From NCBI RefSeq assembly GCF_001270265.1, contig NZ_LGAP01000021.1:1-64000 (forward strand): DNA of 64,000 nt, read 5' to 3'. The position numbers were made by a program, and so were the translations under genes. Below, in pieces: positions 30,550 to 49,282 of the stretch. Every line of letters starts with the position of its first letter. Position 1 is the first letter of the stretch. This DNA is from Ensifer adhaerens. GTDB taxonomy: Bacteria; Pseudomonadota; Alphaproteobacteria; Rhizobiales; Rhizobiaceae. Below the pieces are notes generated by a model that did no database searches, had not been told where the DNA came from, and saw only the letters and a list, made by a program, of their open reading frames with translations.

Positions 30550-33500
30550 TCAGACATTGTCCTGCCGACGCCGTATCTCCGCAGCGATGGTCGCCTCGTC
30601 CTGCCTGAGCGAAAGGCGCTTGGCTGCGGCCAGACCCTGCTGCCACGTCGACAGCGCGCGGTCCTTGCTGTCGTCCAGCCAGTGCGCCAGGCCGCACCAC
30701 AGCCCGTATTGCGCCGTGCCGACCGGGAAGACCCGGCAATAGCGCGAAAGCTCATGCAGCACCTGGCGCTCCCAATGACTCCATTGTTCATACTCGCGCG
30801 ACAAACCCGCCTCCCGTCCACGAAACAGGACCTCGGCCACGCCGGAAATGCCGATCAGCGTGCTGTGTGAGGAGGGGCGGCGCATGGCGCGCAGGAGGCG
30901 AAGCGTATCGACGGCTGCCTCGACGCTTTCTCCGTGTCTGCCGACACGGGCGAGCGCCAGCGCCAGCGCCCCGCGCGCCGATATCTGCGCAGCAAGATCG
31001 ACGGAGCCGAGCATGGCCGACGTGATCAGCCTGAGCACCTCCACCGCTTCGCGCGGTCGATCCATGTGCAGCACGCAAAGGGCCTTGCAACGCAAGGCCC
31101 AGATTTCCTGCTGAATGTTTCCCGCATTCTGGGCCCGAGATAAAAGCGTCAGCGCCGTCGGCTCCAGCGCGCTCCAGTCCCCGCGATAGTAGAGCGACCA
31201 GAAGCGCATGCCCTGCGCATTGCACCAGCGCAGCTGGTCTCCGGCCCTGAGGCTCAGATCCTGCGACTGGTCGAGGCGGCGATCGACCATCTCCCAGTCG
31301 CACTGGCCGATGCGCCAGAGCGCGTCGAGATTGCAGACATGCGAATGGATTGCGGGATCGGCGATCTCGATCGCGACCTTTTCGGCCCTCGACATGAAGT
31401 GGCGGCATACGCGCCGCCAGCCCATCATGCCGAAGCCGCAGGCGAGTTGTGACGACGCAACCGCGGTTTCGACCGAAGAGCCGGTGCGTTCCGCATGGGT
31501 GACGGCGCCGACGAGATTGCACATCCCGCGCGAGAAGCGCAGCTCGAAATAGTCGACCATCGCCGCCTGGTTAAGGCAACGGGCCATTTCGCGCTCCCAC
31601 CGCAAGCGGGTCTGTTTTCCAGCCCAGTCCGGTGACGGCGGGAACGCCTGCTGGTAGGCAAGCCGGGTACCCCGCAGCATCAGGCCAACCAGCGTCCCGC
31701 TCGCCGAGGTCGGCACGGGGGCGCCGGCCGCCTTCAACGCACGCCGGACGGCAACGCCCTGCGCGTGGATATCACCCCGGCTATAGTGGGCTTCGGCGAG
31801 CTGCCGGCGCCATCGGACGGCCTGCAGTCGTTGATCGTCGCTCCACGGGTGCTTCCGGGGTTCGTGGCTGAGGCAGATGCCGACAAACGCCTCGACCTCG
31901 CGGAAGGCGCCGATCTGCAGCGCGTTGGTCGCGGCGAGATCGGCATATTTCACCGCCTTCTCGTTGTTGCCCGCCGCTTCGAAATGTTGGACGAGGACCG
32001 CGACGTCCGCGCCTACCGCATCCTTCCGACCTGCCTCGATCCAGGTTGCGAGCGCACCATGAAGCCGGTTGCGCAGGTCCCCCGGAATGGATCCATAGAC
32101 GACGTCGCGCGTCTGGTCGTGGCGAAACGCATAGTTTCCCGGTTGCTCTTCTGCGCGCACCAGATGTGCGGCCACAAGCGTTTCGAGCGCGGCATAGACG
32201 CTCTCGCCGTCCAGCTCCGGCTCCAGCAAGGCCTCGAGCTCCGTGGCGGTGAACGAGCGCCCGACCACGGCCGCAGCCTTGATCACGTCCTGGGCCGAGC
32301 CGGTCAGGCGATCGAGACGCTCGCGAATGACCCGCTCGACGCCCTCGAAATATCTGAGGTCGTCGAGCGGGCGGATGGAGCGCCAGAAACCGTCACGAAT
32401 GGCGATCAGGCCCTCGCTCTTCAGCGTCAAGGCGATTTCTTCTGCAAAAAACGGATTGCCGCCGGCAAGCTTTGAAATCCGATGCGCCAGTTCGTCATGC
32501 GGCGGCGCCTTGCCCAACGTCCGCTCGACCAGCTTGCAGATCGAGGCATCGTTCAGCTCGTCAAGTTCCAGGATTTGACAAAAGCGCGCCGGATCGTCGC
32601 TCTCCGATGTCCCGGCGCTCATGCGGGCGGATTCGGCCCTGCGCCTGAGGCTTTTCACCTCGTCCGGGATCTCCTCGGAGCGCACGCAAAGGATGACCAG
32701 CAGTGAGGAGTGCGATCCGAGTACCCATTCCACAAGCCGCCAGGAGGCCGAATCGAGCCATTGGCTGTCTTCCAGCACCAGGGTCAGCGGATGTGGTGCT
32801 GCCGTGGCGATGATGTCGCCCATCAGACGCATGGTCGCGTCCGCCCTGTGTGCGCCGTCGAGGTGCCTAGTGCCTTCGTTTTGGGGGGATGTCGACGGCC
32901 AGGACGTCGGCAAGCAAGGGCAGCCGCGCCAAGATGGCGGCGTTTGTCTTGACGCGCTCATGAATACGTTCAAACAGGCGGGTACCATCACAGTCCGCGG
33001 GCAGGCCAAGCAGGCTCTCGATGACCCGGCGCCATGCCCAAAGCGAGGTGCGCCGATCATCCCGTTCGGCGGGGGCAACGGCGACGACCGCGCCCTTTGC
33101 CCGCAATTCGTTGGTGAAGGCGGTGACGAGCCTGGTCTTGCCGATGCCCGGTTCGCCGAGAACCACGACGAGGCTGTTGGTGCCGCCGCTGACGCTGGCA
33201 AATGTGGCTCGCAGGAACCGCAGTTCGCGTTCGCGGCCGATAAGGCTCGTCGGGACGGGTGCAGCCGGGGACCGCGTCTGGGGGCGGAACGCCGGCGCCA
33301 TGTCGCCGAGGCCTTCCAGTTGCAGGGCGCCACGTCGTTCGAAGGAGAACGCCGCCCGGCTTGCCCGCTCGGTCGGCGCATCGCAGAGGATGTCATCCGC
33401 AGCGACGGCCATCAGACGCGCGGCCCGATTGACCGGCGGCCCGAGAACCATCAGTTGACGCCTGCGGGGGCTGCCGACGATGCGAAAGAGTGCGTCGCCC

Positions 33501-34579
33501 GTCGCCACGCCTACCGATACGGCGAGGTCGAAGCGTTGGGCAGTTCGACAGATGGCCCGTGCCGCATCGACGGCGCGCTGCGGGTCGTCGCGGTGAAAGG
33601 TCCCGCGGGCGCCGAAAGCCGCGATGAAGACGAGGCCCTTGTCATCGAAGAGCAGTTCACCAGGTGGCCCGCCTGAATTCTGCAGGTCGGCTTGCAGCGA
33701 AGCGCAGAGGTCATGGTGGCGGGAAAGTGCCATAGGGTCGCTGTGATCGAGCCCGGCGATCCGCGCGAACAAGGCCGAAATTGGCCGGATCTCGGCAAGC
33801 CGGTCCAGCCGTGCGTCTGATCTCAAGCCATTGCCTTCGTCATGCGAGAAACCGTTATGTGTGACGACCGCCGTCTTCTCGGTGGCCCGGACGATGTCTT
33901 GCAGTTGCGGCGGCAGGAAGCCCGCCAGCCATTCGGTCGGCAGCGCCGACGGCATGGAACGCGCACTATGAGAGACGTCCGCAGCGCCTGTGGTTTCCGC
34001 AAGCGCGATCGCCTGCGTCGCGCCGTCCGACAGCACATATTCCCAGCGACGGGCCTGGCTCTGCGCTCTCGCTGCCTGCATCACGGCGTCGCCGCCGGCA
34101 ATCAGGTTCCAAACCGGCTGGCCACCGAGTGCCGCGGCCCAGAGCTGTCCCGCTCCGACGCCGACGTGAAGTGCAGGCCCGACTTCACCCGTGGCCGCCT
34201 CCGGTCGAGCGCCTTGGTCCCGGCAGATCGCTTCTGCGCAGTCGGTTGCGGATCGCACGGCATGGCCAAGGCCGACATCGCCCGCGGCCCAGTAGGCAAG
34301 GAGGGAATCGCCGGAGAAATAGAGGACCTCGCCGCCACGGCTGCAGATCTGCTCGGCACAGCGGGCGTAGGAAAGCGTCAGCAGTTTTGGGATCTGCTCC
34401 AGGCCTTCCTGTCCACGCCGGGCCAATTGTTCGACGAGGGCCGTGTAACGCGACACATCCACGAACAGCACCGCGGCCGGAAACTCGACCGCTGCGGGGC
34501 GGTCGCCGTTGGCGCCATGGATCCTGCCGAGCAATTCCAGCGGCAGGAAGCCCTCCAGGAGCGGATCGTTTTTTCCCAT
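30550..34579 (-). pseudogene. Class III nucleotidyl cyclase-like / AAA ATPase / TPR regulator, frameshifted
   Basis: Two frames together make a protein of about 1340 residues. The first (34579 to about 32884) has two class III cyclase-like domains (LFVDVSRYTALVE, then GGEVLYFSGDSLLAYW; a second copy near GLVFIAAFGARG) and the AAA Walker A GEPGIGKTR. The second (about 32882-30550) continues the ATPase (LVLEDSQWLDSASW, Walker B type) and a TPR-rich half. Removing one G from the G6 tract at 32883-32888 joins ADVLAVDIP to QNEGTRHLDGAHRAD without a gap. Catalytic metal residues of the cyclase domains look incomplete, so they may sense rather than synthesise. Divergent from the giant gene at 35052. 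Either a true mutation, slippage at a homopolymer, or a sequencing error. Confidence 0.82.
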
Positions 34580-35051
34580 GACTTCTTTCTCACGGCCGCA
34601 GAAAGACGGAGGAAGCGTCGGCGCCCAGTTTGCTCATACGATGGGGTGAGGAGCCTACTACTTCTGGATTAGTGTGCCCCCACTCACGTATCTGCAGACT
34701 TTCGCATATAATTCGCCCGGCGCTAAGAGGGGTCTCTCAACCTCAGTCGGAATAAGGGTATGGGTCGGAAGGGCCGATGTGTTGCTTTGTGCCCATATGC
34801 AACCCAAGGTTAAGTCGACATTTCTCGGCTTCGAAGCATGGAACGGATGCGAACATATTTTGCAGGCGTGGAAAGACCGGAAGAAAAGCGGCCGCGATCG
34901 AGGTGGCTGCATATCTGGTGGGGAACACTATGCAGAGAAGCGACATCGGCAAAGACAGATCGCAGGTCGACAACCGATCGGCGGCCGCCATCGACGAGGC
35001 GTTGCGATATCCCATCCCTGGGTGCTGCGGCCGCTCGCCGCGGAGGTCGGC
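34580..35051. promoter_or_regulatory. Divergent promoter region between cyclase-like regulator and giant gene
   Basis: A 472-base gap. TATAAT occurs at 34707-34712 without a good -35. GGAGG-N5-ATG marks the 35052 start. The open frame of the giant gene runs back through this region to 34674, but the residues are not protein-like and match no family. No other gene is seen. Confidence 0.4.
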
Positions 35052-38000
35052 ATGAGCGACCTCGACACGGAATCGAAAACGGCCTGGATATCGCAGGGCT
35101 TCGAACGGCTGGTTGATCGCGTGCGCAAGGCGCCGGCCGATGTGCACTTCGATGTCCTGATCATCGGCAGCGGTTATGGCGGCTCCATCGCCGCGTCGAC
35201 CTTCGCCGGCCGCACGCATGAGGGCCGACCAATCTCCGTCGGCGTGCTCGAGCGCGGGCGGGAATATCTGCCGGGCTCGTTTCCGACAGGGCTCGGTGAA
35301 TTGCCGCGCCATATTCGGGGCGACAACAACAAAGAGGGGCTGATCGACATCAGAATTGGCGAGGAGGTCGTTGCCGTCGTTGCCAATGGTGTGGGCGGCG
35401 GTTCGTTGATCAATGCCGGGGTCATGGAAACGCCGCTACCAAGCGTGTTTCACGAGGGATGGCCGGCGGCACTCAAGGACCTCTCGGACTGGAAATCCTA
35501 TTTCGATCGTGCCCGCGATCTGCTCGGCAGCACCATCAAGGGCGCCCCCAACACCATCGCCGATCATGTCGATGGTGTGCCGCAAAAGTTTCGTTCGGTG
35601 CGCGCCATCGCGCCTGACGGCAATTTCCGGCCGGCTTCGATTACGGTCGCGATGAGCGACACCACCAGCTCGGGCAATGTGCGCCTGAACAAATGCGTGC
35701 GCTGCGGCGACTGCGCGACCGGCTGCAATGGTGGCGCGAAGAACTCGCTCGACGTCAATTTGCTTGTACGGGCGAATGAATACGACGCCGAAATCTTCAG
35801 CGGCGCAACGGTGCTCAGCATAGCCAGGGATGGAGATGCCGGGTGGATCATCAGAAGCGTTCACACCAACGCGAAACTACGCAAGCGCGACGCGGATCCG
35901 GTGCTGATAAGGGCACGCAAGGTCGTGCTCGCCGCCGGCACGCTGGGCTCGAGCGAAATTCTCATGCGGTCTCGGGGTGCAGGCCTGCGGTTGGCGGACA
36001 AGAACCTCGGCACGCGGTGCTCGACCAATGGCGACATGCTGGTTGCCGACTATGCCACCGGTGCTGACGTCAACACCGTCGCCGACGAAACCGTCAAGCC
36101 ATCGATCCGGGCCATAGGGCCGACGATCACCGGCGTGATCGACCTGCGTGCCTCCGCCGGTGTGATGATCGAGGAAATGTCGGTGCCGGCAGCCTTGCGC
36201 ATCGCCTTCGCCGAGGTTTTTGCCACGCTCAATACGCTGCACGGTCTTGCAAGATATGACGGTACCAGGCACCGGCAAGGGTTTCCGGATGACGATATCT
36301 ATGCGGTGCCGGCGGCGCGCATCGGGCGCTCGGCGCTTTATGCCGTCATGGCCGACGACGGCGCGGCGGGCAGGATCGAGCTCGACGGTGATCCAGTTGA
36401 TGTCGGTCGCGATGGCATTGCCCGGATCCGCTGGGACAAGCTGCAAAACCTGCCCATCTTCGACCAGGAGGTCGAGGCGCTCGCCGCACTGACAAGGAAC
36501 TCAGGCGGTCGCCTCATTCCCAATCCGGTCTGGAAGCTGTTGCCGGCCGACCTGGCCTGGCTGCTTAAGGATCAGCGCGGACCATTGGCAACCGTTCATC
36601 CACTTGGCGGCTGCGCGATGGCCGATACCGGCACGGATGGCGTGGTCGACCATCTTGGCCGCGTGTTCACATCGACGGATTCCGATGCGGTGCATGACGG
36701 TCTGGTTGTCCTTGACGGGTCGATTGTTCCGACGGCGCTTGCGACGAACCCTGCGCTGACGATTGCAGCGATTGCGCTGCGTGCTGCCGAGGCGCTGGCG
36801 GCCGAATGGGATTATGCAGCGGCCGAAACCCGGCCTGTCGGCGTACCGCTGGTGCGGCCCGTCTTTCGCAGCACCGATATCGCCGCGCGAGCGCAGTCGA
36901 GCGAGGTGGAGATCATCGAACGGCTCGTCGGCCCCGTTTGCCTGACGCCGAAGGGTGGGGTCGAGGAAACCCGGATCGTCGAGCTGACCATGCGGTTCAC
37001 ACCCACGACGCTCGGTCAGTTGACGCCGAACAATGGCAGCCATCCGATCATTCGTGTCGCGACCGAAGTGCCGGACCGCGCCATCCGGAGCCAGATCCGG
37101 ATTTTCCCCAGGGAGGTATGGGAAACGCTCGAAAGGACCTGGCTGCCTTTGCATGTGAAGGAGCAAAAGCTCGATGCAGCCGTCGAATTCAGCGCGCCGA
37201 TCTCCGGCAGCCTGCGGATCTTCGAGCGGCAGCAGAGTTCCGTGCTCGGGCGCGTGTGGCGCGCCGGCAAGGCCTGGACGTTGAACCGGGGTCTTCGCGA
37301 CAGCTATCAGGCTCTCGTCGACCGTGATGGCGGACCCGGCATCTGGTCGCGGGTCAAATCGGCCTTTTCGATCGCCAGCCGCTCTGGCGAGATCAGGGCG
37401 CTGCGCTATGATCTGACCATTGGACCGCCGGACGTCGGCGGCAAGATCGCGCTTGCCGGCAACCGGATCGTCGGCACCAAGACCTTTACCTATGAGAGGC
37501 GCTGCAATCCATGGCGCCAGCTCATGGAGGTGACGCTCGACAGGTTTCCCGGGCTGAGCCCCGACGGCGGCGAGCGCGTGCTGAAACTCGATGCCGGCTA
37601 TCTCGCGCGGATCGGCGTGCCGTTGTTCCGGATCGTCAATCAACGCGATGGCGCCAACACTATCGGCGAACTGCTGATGTTCTTCGGCTTCGTGACGCGG
37701 CTTCTGCTTGGTATGCACATCTGGAGTTTCCGTGCTCCTGACCAGGACAGGCGGCCACGGGAGGCAATCGTCAACCGTTTACCGCCGAGCACGCTCAGCC
37801 TGCCCGGCGGTGCATCGATTACGGCCGAACTGCATCGCATCGCAATTGCCCCCGAACGACCGGATGGCGGAGGCAACGACATTCCCGGCGAAGTGCGGCT
37901 GACGCGCTACCGCCATCCCAACACCAAAAAGCGCCCACTGGTGATGTTCCACGGCTATAGCGCCAGCGGCACGACCTTTGCCCACCATGCGGTCAATCCC

Positions 38001-40841
38001 AATTTCGCCAGCCATTTCTGGTGCACGGGCCGTGACATATGGATCGCTGATCTCAGAACCAGTGCCGGCCAGCCGACGGCGACGGAAGCCTGGAGCTTCG
38101 ACCAGATCGGCAATGTCGACGTACCGGCAGCGCTGAAGGCAGTGGCGGCGACGTCGCTGGACGGGACGGTCGATGTGATCGCCCATTGCATGGGTACCGT
38201 CGTGTTCAGCATCGCGGTGCTGAACGGCCATGCCGCCGGGCTCGTCAATCGTGCAGTGTTCACGCAGGTTGGCCCGCTCGTGGTCTTTGCGCCGGCCAAC
38301 ATCTTTCGCGCCTATGTCGTGCGCTATCTCATCGATTTCCTGCCGGACAGCTACAGTTTCCACCCGAAGGACCCGACCCTGGCCGATGATCTTCTCGACC
38401 GGCTGCTGTCGACGCTGCCCTATCCGGTCGAGGAGTTCGACGTCGAGAATCCGCTGTGGCCAACGAAGCGAACGCCTTGGACGCGCACGCGGCATCGCAT
38501 GGACGCGCTTTACGGGCGCGACTTCAACGTGCGCAACATGGAGCCGGAGATGCTGCGCCATATCGACGAGCACTTCGGTCCGCTGAGCCTGTCGACGGTG
38601 TCGTCGACCCTGCATTTCGTGCGTTACTCAACGATGACGGACTTTCACGGGCGCAACCGTCTGGTGTCGCGCCAGAACCTGGAAAAGCACTGGTCGTTCC
38701 CGACCTTCAGCGTGCATGGGGCAGAAAACGGCCTGTCGCATGTGTCGACCGTCGATCGCATGCGGCAGATTTTTGGAGATGCCGGGCGGATCTATACCCC
38801 GCCATTCGTCAATCCGGGCGCCGGCCATCAGGATGCTCTGGTCGGAACGACGCGTCACGCGACCCTGCAGCAGATCCAGCAGTTTCTCGACGCCGACATT
38901 CCTGCGGGTGCAGTCAAGGCCGACAGTGAAAAAGTGGTCTATCCGCCCTGGATCGGCCCGATCCTCACCGAAGAGCGCCCAAAGACCCCGGCATTGGTTA
39001 TCCGCCTTGGTTCGGCGCCCTCGCATCGGGCAACCGAAGCCGCTTTACTCCTGCGCATCCGGCTGGTCGATGATCGTATCTGCCGGCCGGATGATCCGGC
39101 GCTGCCCTGGGATACCGGGTATCTCATGGAACACCTGGTAGCCTATGCTTCCAAGGCGCTTGAAGACGATGGCTGGGATGCATTCGAAGTCCCGCTGCCG
39201 GCCCGCATGCCGGGCAACGGCGGTGCAGATCGCAGCAATGCCCTTTTGGTCCTGCTGGTCTATGACGAGGATGCCGCGCTGGCTGCGCCTGACCTGGAGC
39301 ACGAGGAGCCTCCGCCGCCGCTCGAACCCGTCGCGGCACCACCGCCTGTGATCGTGTTCCGCGAGACTGCGGCTCCCCTTGACCCGACGGGTGACGTTGG
39401 GCCAACCGGTGATGTTGGAGGAGGTCTGTCGCTGCCGACCTTTGACTTTGACAGGGACTTGGCACAGCCCGGTCGTGTCGCGCGAGGGCCTGCCTACGGC
39501 TATTTCGTTGCCGATATCGGGCAGAAACGGATGCGACGGCTGGATCCGACAGGGGCCGGCAATGCCTCACGCGGGCAGGCGGTCGCATTCGCCTTCAGCC
39601 GGTTTGAAAAGATGGCCGCTGCCGTGGCGCGCGCAATCGCCTTTCCGCCTCCGAATGCAAGGCGCCAGGGCGTCAAGCAGACGGCGCGTCCGCCGGTTGT
39701 CGAACAGGATTTTGCCCTCCGGGATGGCATCATCCCCTATAATCCGCCGGTACAGCCGCCCCTGGAGCCGACATCGGACGGCACCAGTTTTACGCTCTCT
39801 TCGTGCCAGTATCCGGCCGGCTTTCTCGACGAGGCGGTCGCCTACCATTCCTATGGCCGCATCGGCTCGCGGCTGGAGGCCAAAGCCGGGATCACGCCAC
39901 GCTTCGCGCTCTTCGTCGGCGATCAGGTCTATGTCGACCCGACTGCGGGGCTTTATGATCCGACACGACGGGACGATCGTTACCGCCTGCCCTATGAAGC
40001 CTGGCTCAGCCAGGACAGTGTGCGCAACGTGCTCAGGCAGATTCCGTCCTTCATGCTGCTTGACGACCATGAGATCGACGACAATTGGGAGCCGATCGCC
40101 GAGCCCGACGACTGTGTCAATGCCGAAAAGGCGACGCGCGGTATCGACGCCTACTGGAAGTATCAGCGCGGCATGCATGCCAAGCTTGAGATGTTCGATT
40201 TCGACGGCTTCCATTTTTTCATGCTCGACACGCGGACGCAGCGAACGCACCGCAAGGTCGGCGACGGCCTAAAGTCGGCGGCGATGATCGCACCGGCGAC
40301 GATGGAGAGTTTGAAGCAATGGCTGCTGCTGGCGCCGGCGCCGAAATTCGTCGTGTCACCGGTGATGTTGCTGCCACGGCACCGGCGTGCCATCCAGCGC
40401 GACAGCAGCCTCTCCTGGACGAACCTGAGCGCGCTGCATTCCGACGGTTGGGACGGCTATCCCAACACGCTTCGCGAGGTGCTTGCCTACATCGCCGAGA
40501 ACCGGATCGAGCATGTGGTGTTTCTCTCGGGCGACGAACACCGGGCCTGCGTCGCGACGGTCGATCTTTGCGATGAGGATGGCTCCGTCACCCGTCTCCA
40601 CTCGATCCACACGGCGGCGATGTTTGCGCCCTATCCCTTCGCCAACGGCATCGACGAGGAGATCGTCGACAGCGAGACAATCGAAATCCGGCATGGCGCC
40701 AGGAAATACCGCTGCGTCGTCAATGCAGCGCGCCCGGCGCCGGGAGACGGCGCGACGTTCTTCCATGTCCGTCCGGCGGGAACCGGCTGGGAGTTGGATT
40801 GCGAGTTCGGCGATGGCGCGGTGCAGACGCTGACGATCTGA
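35052..40841 (+). CDS. Giant three-enzyme fusion: GMC oxidoreductase, alpha/beta hydrolase, PhoD-like phosphatase
   Basis: A 1929-residue protein with three enzyme modules. Residues 30-580 are a cholesterol-oxidase-like GMC flavoenzyme: FAD motif GSGYGG (39-44), GVGGGSLINAG, and the active-site HPLGGCAM. It includes Cys215, 218, 221 and 225 in CVRCGDCATGC, an iron-sulfur-like cluster. About 940-1290 form an alpha/beta hydrolase (FHGYSASG) whose nucleophile elbow reads AHCMG, giving Cys1046 in place of Ser, with candidate His1259 in PGAGHQD. About 1575-1929 are a PhoD-type metallophosphatase: LSSCQYP, FVGDQVYVDPT, LLDDHEIDDNW and LSGDEHRA. A Pro-rich linker (about 1415-1450) precedes it. No signal peptide. 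ATG 35052 has GGAGG-N5. Sterol, lipid or similar hydrophobic substrate is plausible but unproven. Confidence 0.85.
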   Translation: MSDLDTESKTAWISQGFERLVDRVRKAPADVHFDVLIIGSGYGGSIAASTFAGRTHEGRPISVGVLERGREYLPGSFPTGLGELPRHIRGDNNKEGLIDIRIGEEVVAVVANGVGGGSLINAGVMETPLPSVFHEGWPAALKDLSDWKSYFDRARDLLGSTIKGAPNTIADHVDGVPQKFRSVRAIAPDGNFRPASITVAMSDTTSSGNVRLNKCVRCGDCATGCNGGAKNSLDVNLLVRANEYDAEIFSGATVLSIARDGDAGWIIRSVHTNAKLRKRDADPVLIRARKVVLAAGTLGSSEILMRSRGAGLRLADKNLGTRCSTNGDMLVADYATGADVNTVADETVKPSIRAIGPTITGVIDLRASAGVMIEEMSVPAALRIAFAEVFATLNTLHGLARYDGTRHRQGFPDDDIYAVPAARIGRSALYAVMADDGAAGRIELDGDPVDVGRDGIARIRWDKLQNLPIFDQEVEALAALTRNSGGRLIPNPVWKLLPADLAWLLKDQRGPLATVHPLGGCAMADTGTDGVVDHLGRVFTSTDSDAVHDGLVVLDGSIVPTALATNPALTIAAIALRAAEALAAEWDYAAAETRPVGVPLVRPVFRSTDIAARAQSSEVEIIERLVGPVCLTPKGGVEETRIVELTMRFTPTTLGQLTPNNGSHPIIRVATEVPDRAIRSQIRIFPREVWETLERTWLPLHVKEQKLDAAVEFSAPISGSLRIFERQQSSVLGRVWRAGKAWTLNRGLRDSYQALVDRDGGPGIWSRVKSAFSIASRSGEIRALRYDLTIGPPDVGGKIALAGNRIVGTKTFTYERRCNPWRQLMEVTLDRFPGLSPDGGERVLKLDAGYLARIGVPLFRIVNQRDGANTIGELLMFFGFVTRLLLGMHIWSFRAPDQDRRPREAIVNRLPPSTLSLPGGASITAELHRIAIAPERPDGGGNDIPGEVRLTRYRHPNTKKRPLVMFHGYSASGTTFAHHAVNPNFASHFWCTGRDIWIADLRTSAGQPTATEAWSFDQIGNVDVPAALKAVAATSLDGTVDVIAHCMGTVVFSIAVLNGHAAGLVNRAVFTQVGPLVVFAPANIFRAYVVRYLIDFLPDSYSFHPKDPTLADDLLDRLLSTLPYPVEEFDVENPLWPTKRTPWTRTRHRMDALYGRDFNVRNMEPEMLRHIDEHFGPLSLSTVSSTLHFVRYSTMTDFHGRNRLVSRQNLEKHWSFPTFSVHGAENGLSHVSTVDRMRQIFGDAGRIYTPPFVNPGAGHQDALVGTTRHATLQQIQQFLDADIPAGAVKADSEKVVYPPWIGPILTEERPKTPALVIRLGSAPSHRATEAALLLRIRLVDDRICRPDDPALPWDTGYLMEHLVAYASKALEDDGWDAFEVPLPARMPGNGGADRSNALLVLLVYDEDAALAAPDLEHEEPPPPLEPVAAPPPVIVFRETAAPLDPTGDVGPTGDVGGGLSLPTFDFDRDLAQPGRVARGPAYGYFVADIGQKRMRRLDPTGAGNASRGQAVAFAFSRFEKMAAAVARAIAFPPPNARRQGVKQTARPPVVEQDFALRDGIIPYNPPVQPPLEPTSDGTSFTLSSCQYPAGFLDEAVAYHSYGRIGSRLEAKAGITPRFALFVGDQVYVDPTAGLYDPTRRDDRYRLPYEAWLSQDSVRNVLRQIPSFMLLDDHEIDDNWEPIAEPDDCVNAEKATRGIDAYWKYQRGMHAKLEMFDFDGFHFFMLDTRTQRTHRKVGDGLKSAAMIAPATMESLKQWLLLAPAPKFVVSPVMLLPRHRRAIQRDSSLSWTNLSALHSDGWDGYPNTLREVLAYIAENRIEHVVFLSGDEHRACVATVDLCDEDGSVTRLHSIHTAAMFAPYPFANGIDEEIVDSETIEIRHGARKYRCVVNAARPAPGDGATFFHVRPAGTGWELDCEFGDGAVQTLTI

Positions 40842-43969: not shown

Positions 43970-44476
43970 ATGACCGATGCAATGGTGCGGCGGCTTCACG
44001 AACGAGAAGAAGGTCGCGTCCGAAACTTCTTCCGCCGACGTCTCAGGAATCGCGAGGATGCGGTCGACGCCACTCAGGAAACGTTCATGCGCATGCTCGA
44101 AGCGTCGCGCTCTACTTTGATCGAGAACCCGCAGGCCTATCTGTTCCAGGTCGCCCGTTCGGTGGCGCGGGTCGCATCACAGCGTGCGGCGCGCGAAATG
44201 ACGATGTTCGTCGCGGAAAGCGAGGGGCTGGAGCACGCCGAGGACAGGCCGATCCAGGACCGCATCGTCAACGGGCGTCAATGCCTGCTGATCATGGCGC
44301 GCACGATCGAAGGGTTGCCGAACCGCTGCCAGCAGGTTTTCATCCTCAGCCGCCTGCACGGGCTTGCCAATGGTGAGATCGCCGATCAGTTGGGAATTTC
44401 TCGAAATATGGTCGAAAAGCACATCATTCGGGCATTGCTTGAGTGCCGGAAAATGCGCGCCGAGATTTTTTTCTGA
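43970..44476 (+). CDS. FecI-type ECF sigma factor
   Basis: A 168-residue ECF sigma factor. Region 2 is RVRNFFRRRLRNREDAVDATQETFMRMLEA (16-45), with an NPQAYLFQVARSVA segment typical of FecI. Region 4 is LPNRCQQVFILSRLHGLANGEIADQLGISRNMVEKHI (about 117-153). The next genes are a FecR-type anti-sigma/activator and a TonB receptor with a signalling domain, the classical cell-surface signalling trio. Its likely promoter sequence is repeated before those two genes (44480-44513 and 45537-45570). Confidence 0.92.
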   Translation: MTDAMVRRLHEREEGRVRNFFRRRLRNREDAVDATQETFMRMLEASRSTLIENPQAYLFQVARSVARVASQRAAREMTMFVAESEGLEHAEDRPIQDRIVNGRQCLLIMARTIEGLPNRCQQVFILSRLHGLANGEIADQLGISRNMVEKHIIRALLECRKMRAEIFF

Positions 44477-44479
44477 TCG

Positions 44480-44513
44480 GACGTCAGGTGGCGTCTTCAT
44501 TTCAACTCTAAGA
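44480..44513 (+). promoter_or_regulatory. Putative FecI-type promoter of the fecR-like gene
   Basis: GACGTCAGG (44480-44488), 16 bases, then ACTCTAAGA (44505-44513). The same two blocks with identical spacing occur at 45537-45570, and each ends 60 bases before the next start codon (44573 and 45630). The conserved spacing fits -35 and -10 elements read by the adjacent ECF sigma. Confidence 0.7.
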
Positions 44514-44572
44514 TGATGTGCGCGCATCCTTGAGATGTCGCTTGCCTGAAATTCATTTCGACCGGAACCGCG

Positions 44573-45523
44573 ATGAACGACAATCGCCAGGACATAGACG
44601 ATAGCATCCTTCAGTCCGCCGCCGCCTGGGTGGCAAGGCTGCAATCGCGCGACGCGACGATGGTCGATCGGGAGGCGTTCGAGGCCTGGCGCGTCGAGAA
44701 CCCTGAGCACGCGCGTGCCTACGACGACTTGCGCACGTTATGGGCCGACCTCGAAGACGTGCCGATACCGCCCGAGCGTCTTGGCAGGTTGCGTGCCTTA
44801 AGGCGTCGCAAGACAAGCGGTATTGTCGCGCTCTGTCTGACCGCAGGTGTCGCCGCGGTACTGATGACCACGCCCTATGCCGACCGCTGGCGCGCCGATT
44901 ATTATACCGGCGTTGGCGAAGTTCGCCGTGTGACGCTGGCCGATGGCACGCAGGTCGACTTGAACACCGATACCGCGCTTGCCGTCCGCTTTGACGAGGG
45001 GCGCAGACGCATCGAGCTTTTGCGCGGAGAAGCCTTCTTCGACGTGATGAAAGATCCCAGGCGCAGCTTTATCGTCGAGGAGGGCACGATCACAGCGACG
45101 GCGCTCGGGACGCACTATTCTGTCAAGGCGGCCACCGGCTCCTTGTCACCGGATGTGCAGGTTGAAGAAGGGCGTGTGCAGGTGTGGACGACCGGGCAGG
45201 ATGTCGTGCTCGGCGCGGGCGACGTTGCGACGATCGATCGAGAGGGCCGGCTGGCATTGGCAAAAGCCGATGTCGCGGCCCGGGCGGCCTGGCGTGACGG
45301 CAAGCTCGTGTTCTCGCGACGCCCGCTGCGCCAGGTGCTGGCGACCCTTGAGCGTTATCGCCACGGCCGCATCTTGCTGATGGACGGTGCCGTCGGCGAC
45401 CTGGAAGTCTCCGGCATCTTCGACCTTCACGATACCGACGATGCCTTGCGCGTCCTTGAAGCCAGCTTGCCGCTCAGCGTCATGCGGCTGTCGGATCTGA
45501 TGGTCGTCGTCCGTTCCCGATAA
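44573..45523 (+). CDS. fecR: FecR-type sigma regulator, inner membrane
   Basis: A 316-residue anti-sigma/sigma-activating protein. The cytoplasmic N-terminus (1-78) has the DUF4880/FecR_N signature (ILQSAAAWVARLQSRDATMVDREAFEAWRVENPEHARAYD). One membrane segment follows (IVALCLTAGVAAVLM, about 84-98), then the periplasmic FecR domain (GEVRRVTLADGTQVDLNTDTAL and RGEAFFDV) and a C-terminal STN-like part (GIFDLHDTDDALRVLEASLPL). It relays the receptor state to the sigma factor encoded upstream. Confidence 0.92.
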   Translation: MNDNRQDIDDSILQSAAAWVARLQSRDATMVDREAFEAWRVENPEHARAYDDLRTLWADLEDVPIPPERLGRLRALRRRKTSGIVALCLTAGVAAVLMTTPYADRWRADYYTGVGEVRRVTLADGTQVDLNTDTALAVRFDEGRRRIELLRGEAFFDVMKDPRRSFIVEEGTITATALGTHYSVKAATGSLSPDVQVEEGRVQVWTTGQDVVLGAGDVATIDREGRLALAKADVAARAAWRDGKLVFSRRPLRQVLATLERYRHGRILLMDGAVGDLEVSGIFDLHDTDDALRVLEASLPLSVMRLSDLMVVVRSR

Positions 45524-45536
45524 AAAATTTCCGATC

Positions 45537-45570
45537 GACGTCAGGAGATCGTCGCGCGTGCACTCTTAGA
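45537..45570 (+). promoter_or_regulatory. Putative FecI-type promoter of the TonB receptor gene
   Basis: GACGTCAGG (45537-45545), N16, ACTCTTAGA (45562-45570), matching the element before the fecR-like gene. Only the central A/T of the second block differs. It ends 60 bases before the receptor ATG at 45630. Confidence 0.7.
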
Positions 45571-45629
45571 CAGCGAGTGGCTGCGCGACGAGCATATGCG
45601 CTGCCTCAGAATTCTGTTGGGGATTACGG

Positions 45630-48041
45630 ATGACATCTTTCGAGGCACGCGGATTTCGGCGCCGGCTTTTCTCTCGTTCGGCACTGGCCGGCATTTCCCT
45701 CATTGCATGCGCGACGGCGCTGCATGCCGAAACGCCGGTCGGAGCACCCGCATCGGTCTCGTCGTCCCAGCGTGATGTCTCGGTTTCCGCAGGTGCACTG
45801 GAAGGGGCACTGCTGAAGCTTGGGCAACAGACAGACTTGCGGCTCTTCTATCCGAGCGCACTAACCCAGGGAAAGCTGACCAAGGGCGTGAGCGGCAAGA
45901 TGGCCGCCGACAAGGCGATCGCACAGTTGCTGGAAGGCACCGGTCTTAGATATCGCATGACCGGCGCCAAGACCGTTCAGCTCTATGACCCGACCGACGC
46001 GACGATCGTAACCGGTGCCGTCGTCAAGAATGGGGCGACGCAACTCGAGAAGATCACTGCGACCGGAAAGCGCGAAGGTGTCGAGGGCATCATCGAGACC
46101 GAGGGCTATGTCGCGAAATCCGCCCGCACCGCCACCAAGACCGATACGCCTGTCATGCAGACGCCACAGTCGATGTCGGTCATCAGCCAGAAGCAGTTGC
46201 AGGACCTGAAGCCTCAGAACCTGATGGAGGCGTTGAATTACACGCCCGGTGCGCGCGTCGGCCAGTATGGCGCCGAGCCTCGTTTCGATGCCTTCAAGGT
46301 ACGCGGCATCGACCTTACCCTTACCGGCATCTTCCGCGACGGCCTGCGCCAGATTTCGAGCCCGAACGCCCTCTTCCGCCTGGAGCCCTATGGCGTCGAG
46401 GCAATCGCCACCCTGCGCGGCCCGGCGGCTTCGATCTACGGCGCCAGCAGCTCCGGTGGCATCGTCGACATCGTCTCGAAGCGGCCGACCAGCGATCCGC
46501 TGCGTGAGGTCGAGGTGCAGTACGGCTCCTACGGCCGCGTGCAAGGTGCCTTCGACTTCTCCGGACCGCTCGACGACGAAGGCACCATGCTCTACCGGAT
46601 GACGGGCCTTGCCCGCGACGGGCGCACCGAGATCGAGGCGGTGAAGGACGATCGCCTGTTCATCGCTCCGGCCTTCACCTGGCAGCCGGACGAGGGCACC
46701 AAGTTCACCCTTCTCGGCGAATACATGGATTCGACGACCGGGGGCACCTGGGGCTACCTCAATCGCTACGGGCCTGACGGCAAGTCGATCGGCGCCATCC
46801 CAACCTATGGCGGCGACGCCCGTTTCAACGACTTCACCCAGAAGCAGGCGCGCATCGGCTACGAATTGGAGCATGAACTCAGCGACAGCGTCACGCTCTA
46901 TCACAAGCTGCGCTATTCCGACATTTCGACGAACCAGGAATGGGTGTTCGACGCCTATCCGGGCCTGACTGTCGAAGACAACACCGGCGTTGCCAGCGAC
47001 ACCTACCTGAAGTTCGATTTTGACACCGGTGCTGCTGCCCACCAGCTCATCGCCGGCGTCGATTACAGCTACATGAAGTACACCTCGCAGCAGGGCAGCG
47101 GGCCGGATCTTTTCACCGACGACTTCACTTATGTGCCGGCACTGACGTCGACGCAGAAGCAGTCGCAGAGCGGCATCGGCATCTATGTCCAGGACCAGAT
47201 CGAGTATGACGCCTGGCGCCTGACGGCGGGCCTACGCCACGATTGGGTGGACAACAAATATTCGGTCGACGGCTCGCCCTTCAATCGGGATGACAGCGAA
47301 ACGACCGCGCGCGCCGCACTCGGCTACGTCTTGCCGAACGGCCTCATGCCCTATGTCAGTTATGGCACTGCCTTCGTCTCCAACCCAGGCGTCATCATCA
47401 ACCTTGGCGGGGTCAACCAGGCGGCCATGCCGACGCTCGGTAAGCAGTGGGAAGCGGGCGTCAAGTACGAGATCCCCGGCCAGAACGCGACGATCACCGC
47501 GGCGGTCTTTGACATCGACCAGGAAAACGCCACCGTCTACGAGACGTCTTCGGGCATAAACCTCCTGCGTCAGCTCGACCTCAAGTCCCGCGGCTTCGAA
47601 CTCGAAGGCAACGCTTCGCTCGACAACGGCTGGAGCTTCATCGCCTCCTACTCCTATAATGACGTCGAGATCACCAAGCTGACGTCGGAGACGCTCGGCA
47701 ACACGCTGAACTCCTCGCCCTATCACATGTTCTCGCTCTGGGCGGATTACGAGGTACAATCCGGCGTGCTTGAAGGGCTCGGCGTCGGTGCGGGTGTCCG
47801 TTATGTCGGGTCCAGTTTCGGCGACAACGTTCACACGCCGATCCTCAACAACCAGGCCCGTACCTTCGTCGACGCCTCGGTTCGTTATGACCTCGGTGCC
47901 GTTAACCCATCCTTCGAGGGCGTTCGGCTGCAGCTGAACGCCACCAATCTGCTGAACGAAGTCGAGCAGTTGTGCACCACCGGCTTCTGCTACTTCGACG
48001 AGGGTCGCAAGGTCGTCGCCAGCCTGCGGTACCGCTTCTGA
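45630..48041 (+). CDS. TonB-dependent siderophore receptor with STN signalling domain
   Basis: An 803-residue outer-membrane receptor of the FpvA/FhuA-type siderophore family. Signal peptide cleaved near TALHA-ET (about 34). An STN domain (about 50-117, ALEGALLKLGQQTDLRLFYPSAL) signals to FecR. Plug domain from about 170: QTPQSMSVISQKQLQDLKPQNLMEALNYTPG, ending near RGPAASIYGASSSGGIVDIVSKRP. The beta barrel closes with ASLRYRF, with the terminal Phe needed for assembly. CTTGFCYFDEGRK near the end is the usual last-strand cysteine pair. Ligand is probably a ferric hydroxamate or catecholate; the downstream RhtX-type importer points to a citrate-hydroxamate or pyochelin-like siderophore. Confidence 0.93.
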   Translation: MTSFEARGFRRRLFSRSALAGISLIACATALHAETPVGAPASVSSSQRDVSVSAGALEGALLKLGQQTDLRLFYPSALTQGKLTKGVSGKMAADKAIAQLLEGTGLRYRMTGAKTVQLYDPTDATIVTGAVVKNGATQLEKITATGKREGVEGIIETEGYVAKSARTATKTDTPVMQTPQSMSVISQKQLQDLKPQNLMEALNYTPGARVGQYGAEPRFDAFKVRGIDLTLTGIFRDGLRQISSPNALFRLEPYGVEAIATLRGPAASIYGASSSGGIVDIVSKRPTSDPLREVEVQYGSYGRVQGAFDFSGPLDDEGTMLYRMTGLARDGRTEIEAVKDDRLFIAPAFTWQPDEGTKFTLLGEYMDSTTGGTWGYLNRYGPDGKSIGAIPTYGGDARFNDFTQKQARIGYELEHELSDSVTLYHKLRYSDISTNQEWVFDAYPGLTVEDNTGVASDTYLKFDFDTGAAAHQLIAGVDYSYMKYTSQQGSGPDLFTDDFTYVPALTSTQKQSQSGIGIYVQDQIEYDAWRLTAGLRHDWVDNKYSVDGSPFNRDDSETTARAALGYVLPNGLMPYVSYGTAFVSNPGVIINLGGVNQAAMPTLGKQWEAGVKYEIPGQNATITAAVFDIDQENATVYETSSGINLLRQLDLKSRGFELEGNASLDNGWSFIASYSYNDVEITKLTSETLGNTLNSSPYHMFSLWADYEVQSGVLEGLGVGAGVRYVGSSFGDNVHTPILNNQARTFVDASVRYDLGAVNPSFEGVRLQLNATNLLNEVEQLCTTGFCYFDEGRKVVASLRYRF

Positions 48042-49282
48042 TGGCGCATCGAGAGCGGGCATCCGCGACACCGTCTCCGGTCGCGGTCTTCCTTACGGTC
48101 GGCGGCCTTTATGTCGCCCAGAGCGTCATCGGCGGGCTGACGATGCTGGGCCTGCCGGCAGTCCTGCGGGAGCGGGGGCTGCCGCTCGACCAGATCGGCC
48201 TGGTGTACCTGACCGTACTGCCCTGGGCGCTCAAATTTCTTTGGTCGCCCTATGTCGAACGGTTCCGCCTGCCGGCCGCCGGCCGCAACCGATCATCGAT
48301 CATCGTTGTCCTCGGGGGCGTGCTCTGCGCACTCGCCCTGGCGGCGCTCGGCATTCTCGGACCCGAGCGACTGAGCCTAATGCTTGTTTGCCTCGTCTTC
48401 ATTGCCCTTGTTACGTCCACCGTCGACATCGCTTGCGATGGATATGCGGTGGAAACGCTCGCCAAGGAGCACCACGGTTGGGGCAACGCTGCCCAGGTGG
48501 GCGGCGCCTATGTCGGTTCGGCGATCGGCGCGGGATTGTTTCTCGTGTTCGTCGACCGGCTTGGCTGGGCGCCTGCCGTATGGATCATGGCAGCGATCGT
48601 GCTCGCCCTTGGACTTCCCTTCCTGCTCGGGCCCGGTCGGCGTGCTTCGAGCGAGGTGCGCGGCCACACACCGTCGCTTGCGGCGGCTCTCAGGCGACCC
48701 GAAGTTCGCAAGGGGCTGCTGATGGCTGCCATCTACGTCTCGGCCCAGAAATGGGGGCTCGCCATGCTCGGGCCGTTCCTGATCGACTATGGTTTCAGCC
48801 TGGCCGATGTCGGCATCTTGAACGGTCTCGGCAGCATGCTGGTCGGTTTCGGCGGAGCGCTGCTGGGCGGCTTGCTTGTGCGTCTGTGGGGTGCCGGCGT
48901 GGTTCTGGTCGGCGCGCTGCTGCTGCAGGTCGTCATGCTGGGCGGTTTTGCCTTCATCGCCTCTCATGGAGAGCTGCCAAGATCGCTGGTGATCACGATC
49001 GCTGTTGCCAGTTCGTCCGGCGTCATGGCCGTTGGCTTCGTCGCACTTTACGCCCAGTTCATGGGCTGGGCGGATCCGCGGCAGGCGGGCGTCGACTTCA
49101 CCCTGTTCCAGTGCATGGACAGTCTCATCAGCATGGCCGGCGGCCTTGGGGCCGGCTGGATCGCCGAGCACTTCGGCTATACGGCTTTCTTCCTCAGTGC
49201 CGCGATCGTCTCGACGCTGGCAGCGCCACTGCTTGTGCTTCTCGTGCGCCAGCGTCGTTTGCCACGCCAAGCCGTTGCCTGA
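48041..49282 (+). CDS. RhtX/FptX-type MFS siderophore importer
   Basis: A 413-residue inner-membrane permease with 12 predicted helices, overlapping the receptor stop (TGATG at 48039-48043). Family features: LTMLGLPAVLRERGLPLDQIGLVYLTVLPWALKFLWSP at the N-terminus and VDIACDGYAVETLA in helix 4-5. RhtX (rhizobactin 1021) of S. meliloti and FptX (pyochelin) of Pseudomonas are single-protein importers that replace an ABC system. It therefore completes a receptor-to-cytoplasm route without a binding protein. Confidence 0.9.
   Translation: MAHRERASATPSPVAVFLTVGGLYVAQSVIGGLTMLGLPAVLRERGLPLDQIGLVYLTVLPWALKFLWSPYVERFRLPAAGRNRSSIIVVLGGVLCALALAALGILGPERLSLMLVCLVFIALVTSTVDIACDGYAVETLAKEHHGWGNAAQVGGAYVGSAIGAGLFLVFVDRLGWAPAVWIMAAIVLALGLPFLLGPGRRASSEVRGHTPSLAAALRRPEVRKGLLMAAIYVSAQKWGLAMLGPFLIDYGFSLADVGILNGLGSMLVGFGGALLGGLLVRLWGAGVVLVGALLLQVVMLGGFAFIASHGELPRSLVITIAVASSSGVMAVGFVALYAQFMGWADPRQAGVDFTLFQCMDSLISMAGGLGAGWIAEHFGYTAFFLSAAIVSTLAAPLLVLLVRQRRLPRQAVA

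Follow-up and report, generated by a model that had tools for sequence, protein, structure and literature searches.

A four-module fusion protein of Ensifer is a variant of an unnamed, widespread set of known enzyme families

Introduction

The PHA synthase PhaC carries a cysteine nucleophile on an alpha/beta-hydrolase fold. Bacterial proteins in which a GMC oxidoreductase is joined to an alpha/beta-hydrolase (ABH) domain are, as far as seen, named only by automatic annotation. The PhoD family is described as consisting typically of extracytoplasmic, phosphate-releasing enzymes, and it includes the S. chromofuscus phospholipase D (PMC4223295). For the FAD glucose dehydrogenase of Burkholderia cepacia (BcGDH), the structure paper gives Cys212, Cys218 and Cys222 as the ligands of a 3Fe-4S cluster (PMC6719666).

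Here we describe a gene of an Ensifer in which relatives of these enzymes are joined in one frame. It lies in a window of 64,000 nucleotides, by which we mean the whole stretch of DNA that was analysed. A literature search, judged by title and the start of the abstract, yielded no paper about the combination of GMC, ABH and phosphoesterase.

Results

The fusion gene spans positions 35052 to 40841 of the forward strand and encodes 1929 amino acids plus the stop codon in a stop-free translation. Upstream of the ATG at 35052 the frame is still open as far as a GTG at 34674; the ATG is preceded by a ribosome-binding-like site (GGAGG, 35042-35046, forward strand) and is backed as the start by the orthologues, which have a Met at the equivalent position of the alignment. 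Pfam searches with the protein detected GMC_oxred_N (residues 84-307, E 3.9e-11), GMC_oxred_C (513-575, E 6e-11) and PhoD (1595-1841, E 2.6e-21), and the alpha/beta-hydrolase part is below Pfam detection in the window protein itself. An earlier note on this DNA had described a single frame of 1929 residues with GMC oxidoreductase, hydrolase and PhoD parts, which was confirmed by translation, Pfam, profiles and the predicted fold. Its view that three enzyme classes are united in one cytosolic polypeptide was borne out as well, no signal peptide being seen when the N-terminus was judged by eye. Two parts had been overlooked, namely a region of about residues 591-945, here called MID, and some 290 amino acids (1284-1575) between the hydrolase and PhoD.

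The GMC module (35139-36821, forward strand; about residues 30-590) is cholesterol-oxidase-like (profile E 1e-42 to cholesterol oxidase) and has the N- and C-terminal Pfam domains, the dinucleotide motif and the His/Asn pair of the GMC family. The cholesterol oxidase equivalog NF058674 was not reached (149 bits, cut-off 850). In the alignment used for conservation, whose rows come from 80 loci, another 19 loci and the window and in which at least two contigs are present twice (L064/L083, L187/L088), H516 is conserved in 108 of 109 aligned rows, and position 566 is N in 94, H in 15 and A in one of 110. We take H516 and N566 to be the catalytic positions of the GMC family. Four cysteines (C215, C218, C221 and C225) form a CxxCxxCxxxC motif at 35694-35726 of the forward strand and are kept in 106/106, 105/107, 107/107 and 107/107 rows, respectively. 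The spacing of C215, C221 and C225 (C-x5-C-x3-C) equals that of C212, C218 and C222 in BcGDH (PMC6719666). Judging by this conservation and spacing, the motif is predicted to bind an Fe-S cluster, and since the spacing is that of the 3Fe-4S ligands of BcGDH, the module appears likelier to be a dehydrogenase than an oxidase.

For the ABH module (37887-38900, forward strand; about residues 946-1283) a lipase fold was found by profile and by structure prediction. A profile of the relatives matched gastric and lysosomal acid lipases with E-values of 2e-18 to 2e-14, and the predicted fold (pLDDT mostly 73-97) had gastric and lysosomal acid lipase as its top Foldseek matches. The Ser-His-Asp triad of the acid lipases is not present. 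Cys1046 (38187-38189) aligns with the Ser of GHSQG in gastric lipase and thus takes the nucleophile position; it is C in 100 of 102 rows, with Gly in the other two (L065 and L183). Asn1226 (38727-38729), at the acid position, aligns with the gastric lipase Asp, and His1259 (38826-38828), at the position of the catalytic His, aligns with its His; both are kept in 102/102 rows, and all three codons are on the forward strand. We take the aligned Ser, Asp and His to be the catalytic residues of gastric lipase. The earlier note had judged the motifs of each enzyme to be intact: the catalytic motifs are present, but the "hydrolase" carries Cys-His-Asn and not Ser-His-Asp. The name hydrolase fits the lipase fold, whereas acyl transfer is, because of Cys-His-Asn, as open as hydrolysis. 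Among the matches listed in the literature search, no title dealt with a lipase-fold enzyme with a Cys-His-Asn triad.

The PhoD-like metallophosphoesterase module (39777-40838, forward strand; about residues 1576-1929) scored 76.6 bits with PhoD PF09423 (cut-off 27), and its profile matched B. subtilis PhoD 2yeq with an E-value of 2.5e-22; the PhoD alkaline phosphatase equivalog NF058638 was not reached (22.5 bits, cut-off 1000). Comparison with the Fe/Ca ligands of B. subtilis PhoD, for which the ligand variants were taken from PMC4223295 and Y210 was assigned from the alignment and the tyrosinate ligand of that paper, showed that seven of eight are identical and that the site is of the Cys type. 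C180, D207, Y210, D265, D266, N272 and D436 are kept as C1585 (outside the HMMER match and placed through the conserved SC motif), D1624, Y1627, D1671, D1672, N1678 and D1828, and N271 is replaced by D1677. An extracytoplasmic location with a signal peptide, a trait of the PhoD family, is not seen in the fusion when its N-terminus is inspected by eye; by the same inspection, four separate PhoD proteins and four calcineurin-like ones have no signal peptide. In the reverse direction, this PhoD subtype can also stand apart from GMC-ABH. Seven matches to it were found in 398 Pseudomonadota genomes, two of them attached to GMC-ABH and the other five judged separate by contig or by the absence of an ABH match. 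Six PhoD relatives were fetched with their surroundings: L054 and L055 have the other modules there, whereas L056-L059 have neither GMC nor ABH, although one of these four is close to the end of its contig.

MID (36822-37886, forward strand), located between GMC and the hydrolase, appears from its sequence to be an undescribed domain. In Pfam searches with 14 members no family matched more than one of them (best E 0.022), and a search against the PDB gave no significant match. Elsewhere, MID is a gene of its own in L055 and is joined to patatin in L184, where a patatin-like phospholipase has MID at its C-terminus (L184:10797-12338, forward strand). The linker between the hydrolase and PhoD (38901-39776, forward strand) is the least conserved part of the protein. 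That it might be an N-terminal domain of PhoD was considered and found to be unsupported, with no detectable similarity to the N-termini of separate PhoD proteins. Predicted structures of MID and of linker plus PhoD were too poor for use.

The same uninterrupted single frame is present in nine of 16 genomes of the genus, its own included, and the other fusion orthologues are 63-92% identical to the window gene by piece. In Ensifer sp. PDNC004 the fusion is found as one CDS on a plasmid, and named plasmids of Ensifer adhaerens and E. canadensis also carry it; some of the plasmid records are the same replicons as members of the 16-genome set. Of the 48 records that matched, seven cover at least 80% of the query at a single place. 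The fusion is broken into two frames in G006, PhoD scraps alone remain in G002 and G005, and a search of the 16 genomes found no counterpart in G008, G010, G011 and G014; weak matches in G008, G010 and G011 are to the GMC C-terminus of proteins of about 500 amino acids. Being absent or decayed in six of the 16 genomes and broken in a seventh, the fusion is dispensable for life. Comparison with eight orthologues, three of them so far away that their values depend on high dS, gave dN/dS of 0.08-0.21 for GMC, 0.13-0.39 for MID, 0.03-0.19 for ABH, 0.12-0.43 for the linker and 0.12-0.23 for PhoD; purifying selection acts on every module. The broken frame in G006 and the scraps in G002 and G005 would fit a long frame that is an artefact of an assembly join or of gene decay, but with nine genomes sharing the frame and dN/dS well under 1 in each module we regard this as extremely improbable. 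An assembly join, which the earlier note had itself allowed for, is ruled out on these same two grounds and by the single CDS on the PDNC004 plasmid.

Relatives of the fusion keep the modules as neighbouring genes, which largely answers the concern that other genomes might hold them separate and unlinked. In another genus of the family (G406) a GMC-MID-ABH open frame of 1369 amino acids is followed by a PhoD open frame of 567 amino acids. The two are seven bases apart and in different frames, and the start codon of PhoD is unsettled, so that joining them took more than the loss of one stop codon. L055 (G108), of the same class, has PhoD, MID, GMC and ABH as four consecutive genes. The run in L184 (G754) consists of ABH, an acetoacetate decarboxylase-like gene (ADC), patatin with MID, GMC and a calcineurin-like (Metallophos-like) protein with a Pfam score of 21.4 bits (cut-off 21.5); L185 (G748) resembles L184 by length and profile. 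In L060 a frame of 1432 amino acids (L060:1098-5393, reverse strand) unites a calcineurin-like region (20.2 bits) with a GMC oxidoreductase, the order being the reverse of that in the fusion, possibly an independent fusion of the phosphoesterase-GMC pair. L116, with a frame of 1955 amino acids, was not counted as a second giant fusion because its first 810 amino acids do not look like protein.

Searching genome contigs with the ABH alignment gave 339 relatives, of which the best 80 were kept (ten named phyla); this set was ranked by closeness to a single Hyphomicrobium sequence, and Pseudomonas supplies 15 of its members. The ABH frame also holds GMC in 72 of these best 80, and in some of the others the contig stops within the frame. 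Of the 80, 47 have a metallophosphoesterase gene no more than 5 kb away, 45 of them on the same strand, although these neighbour counts are not blind because the phosphoesterase models derive from the very loci that were counted. Where both flanks reach 4 kb or more, a phosphoesterase is present in 36 of 53 loci, and counting by taxon group (genus, else family or record title) gave 28 of 54. Per 100 kb, phosphoesterase density was 6.6 and 8.8 within 5 kb, compared to 1.05 and 0 farther away; the window genome (7.46 Mb) has 17 Metallophos and two PhoD matches, one of the latter being the fusion. The phosphoesterases beside GMC-ABH come from at least three groups: PhoD in five loci, one calcineurin-like group in 14, another in 29, and single others, where one locus may hold two. 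Calcineurin-like members in L062, L074, L060 and L118 are just below the Pfam cut-off. With the models used, no phosphoesterase was found in 33 of the best 80 of the 339 relatives, 16 of them with short flanks. Phosphate removal, which had been made part of the set, is therefore frequent but not universal. Of the combination that the earlier note had singled out, the joining of GMC to a hydrolase is itself common and occurs in many phyla. In two loci of the cyanobacterium Mastigocoleus (L117:11176-12714 and L119:11341-12843, forward strand) a metallo-beta-lactamase-fold gene, identified by Pfam for L119 and by similarity for L117, follows GMC-ABH instead.

Among 398 drawn Pseudomonadota genomes, ABH occurs in nine, at 11 places. 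A phosphoesterase is fused or near in seven of these (G000, G406, G328 on the other strand, G551, G756, G748:C9 and G754), and none was found by the models used, with Pfam run on one neighbour only, in four (G527 twice, G731 and G748:C32). The sample of 398 genomes overlaps with that of 80 loci, since G328 and L088 are one and the same contig. A quick tree was made of 56 rows that carried hand-set labels, L131 being labelled despite a phosphoesterase 5.5 kb away. On it the PhoD label requires six changes, at least four of them forced by starred branches, and 14 of 500 label shuffles were as low; such changes cannot separate gain from loss, and the Ensifer branch is long. Because linked and unfused versions of the modules recur, the fusion represents one end state of an enzyme set that bacteria have in many arrangements.

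Upstream of the fusion, a divergent gene with class III cyclase and AAA_16 domains by Pfam (30550-34579, reverse strand) is present as two overlapping frames (30550-33396 and 32867-34579). By tblastn it forms a single stretch next to the fusion in G001, G003, G009, G012 and G015 and likewise next to the unfused genes in G406; G004 and G007 lack a match, and G013 has no more than a scrap. Since the fusion is kept in one frame in these last three genomes, the cyclase/AAA gene was rejected as a needed partner; it is possible that it is an old regulator of the fusion. Downstream, the translations of 43970-49282 (forward strand) look like a sigma factor, a FecR-like protein, a TonB-receptor-like protein and an MFS protein, an order reminiscent of siderophore uptake loci. 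Of the best 80 of the 339 relatives, 28 have a di-heme cytochrome gene related to RoxA within 5 kb, and the one that was tested scored above the cut-off of NCBIfam CytoC_perox; no cytochrome gene was seen among the neighbours of the Ensifer fusion. In Pseudomonas L133 a RoxA-like di-heme cytochrome and a calcineurin-like phosphoesterase follow GMC-ABH (L133:11125-14326, forward strand), an arrangement that is shared by Pseudomonas, Acidobacteria and Chromobacterium loci and in which the N-terminal stretch of the cytochrome is hydrophobic. The L133 block is located between ETF/DUF3483 genes and a FAD/NAD/2Fe-2S reductase, and the same clusters flank 14-15 Pseudomonas loci. The surroundings may be a glycine-betaine locus, which makes choline a lead only.

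Discussion

We propose that the fusion is a cytosolic enzyme that acts on a lipid and combines alcohol oxidation with phosphoester and acyl chemistry, with a presumed substrate and order of steps; for and against this reading we see the balance as even. Points against it are the 33 of 80 relatives in which the models used found no phosphoesterase, the metallo-beta-lactamase-fold gene of Mastigocoleus, the occurrence of the PhoD subtype apart from GMC-ABH, the dispensability of the gene and the fact that no cytochrome gene was seen beside the Ensifer fusion. The PhoD-type Fe/Ca centre would cleave a phosphoester, and the Cys-His-Asn lipase-fold domain would form an acyl-thioester and then transfer or hydrolyse the acyl group. 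Each of these reactions, phosphoester cleavage and acyl removal, would expose a hydroxyl for oxidation by the GMC flavin dehydrogenase, whose electrons would exit via a surface Fe-S cluster. This electron route is favoured by the BcGDH-like cysteine spacing and by the di-heme cytochrome genes near 28 of the 80 relatives. MID may hold the lipid-like substrate, a step based on the one relative with MID joined to patatin, and the fusion would retain the intermediate on one chain. The architecture, the conservation of catalytic residues, the selection and the repeated linkage are observed; a shared substrate, its lipid nature, the Fe-S content, the thioester chemistry and the step order are what we infer. 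That the modules occur fused, as unfused operons and with different phosphoesterase groups argues for a single pathway served by phosphoester cleavage, the Cys lipase-fold step and GMC oxidation, and the fused set points to a pathway that is undescribed. Its substrate is probably a lipid-like compound in view of the kin of each module and the patatin partner: the nearest solved relatives are cholesterol oxidase and acid lipase/cholesteryl ester hydrolase, and the PhoD family includes a phospholipase D. To speak of a complete degradative or detoxifying machine, as the earlier note did, was a guess as to both substrate and direction (breakdown or synthesis).

Two other readings were weighed against this model. 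The phosphoesterase could be a passenger, a PhoD for phosphate scavenging or housekeeping that was joined to GMC-MID-ABH through chance adjacency. The seven bases between the open frames of G406 would suit such an accident, as would the fast evolution of the linker, the occurrence of the PhoD subtype apart from GMC-ABH and the typically extracytoplasmic, phosphate-releasing nature of the family (PMC4223295). However, several phosphoesterase groups recur beside GMC-ABH across phyla, neither the fusion nor the four separate PhoD proteins have a signal peptide by eye, and the metal ligands of PhoD are conserved, with dN/dS of 0.12-0.23, so that we find a passenger quite unlikely. The set could also be biosynthetic, with acyl transfer by the Cys domain, oxidation and dephosphorylation serving to modify a lipid or secondary metabolite and not to degrade it. 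A Cys nucleophile on this fold resembles PHA synthase chemistry, and Foldseek lists PhaC among its matches. In R. leguminosarum, phaC/phaE are found about 8 kb or less from the relative, and the distribution is patchy (nine of 398 genomes of the phylum). On the other hand, no adjoining synthase genes were seen among the selected annotated neighbours, and lipases and cholesterol oxidases are the closest relatives of solved structure; a biosynthetic role is rather unlikely in our view.

Extending the proposed lipid-directed enzyme beyond Ensifer, we tentatively suggest, as a possibility that falls short of even chances, an undescribed, phylum-spanning system. It would consist of GMC, MID, a Cys-His-Asn lipase-fold domain and a cytosolic metallophosphoesterase, have a chemistry of its own in which a papain-like triad on a lipase fold is coupled to an Fe-S flavin dehydrogenase, act on a lipid that is both phosphorylated and acylated, and have been condensed by Ensifer into one polypeptide. 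If so, this condensation lets the whole system be tested as a single protein. The fusion ties a phosphoesterase to a widespread GMC-lipase pair that, as far as seen, has been named by automatic annotation only. Should the set form a single pathway, many genes annotated as "alpha/beta fold hydrolase" and "metallophosphoesterase" (339 relatives) would gain a shared, testable function. For an acid-lipase fold to carry a conserved Cys-His-Asn triad would in itself be unusual enzymology.

Among known systems, the bacterial GMC-ABH proteins (about 1150 amino acids, annotated "alpha/beta fold hydrolase") have GMC, MID and ABH in the order of the fusion, but they are without PhoD and are about 32-37% (GMC) and 22-31% (ABH) identical in the rows compared. 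Cholesterol oxidase (PDB 4u2l, 1b4v; NF058674) shares the GMC fold and is the top PDB and NCBIfam match; in contrast to it, the GMC module of the fusion has four conserved cysteines and is joined to other enzymes. The catalytic subunit of BcGDH (PDB 6a2u, 8grj) shares the fold and the cysteine spacing of its 3Fe-4S ligands, whereas the fusion has an additional fourth cysteine, and the PDB match covers part of the chain only. With the PhoD family, represented by B. subtilis PhoD and S. chromofuscus phospholipase D, seven of eight compared metal ligands are identical, yet the module of the fusion has no signal peptide by eye, is fused C-terminally and has Asp at the position of N271. Gastric and lysosomal acid lipases (PDB 1k8q, 1hlg, 6v7n) are closest to the ABH module by sequence and structure and share its fold; they use Ser-His-Asp, while the ABH module has Cys-His-Asn and is bacterial, cytosolic and fused. 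PhaC, a distant relative at Foldseek ranks 25, 42 and 45, has both the alpha/beta-hydrolase fold and the Cys nucleophile in common with the ABH module, and differs from it in having Asp at the acid position, where the fusion has Asn.
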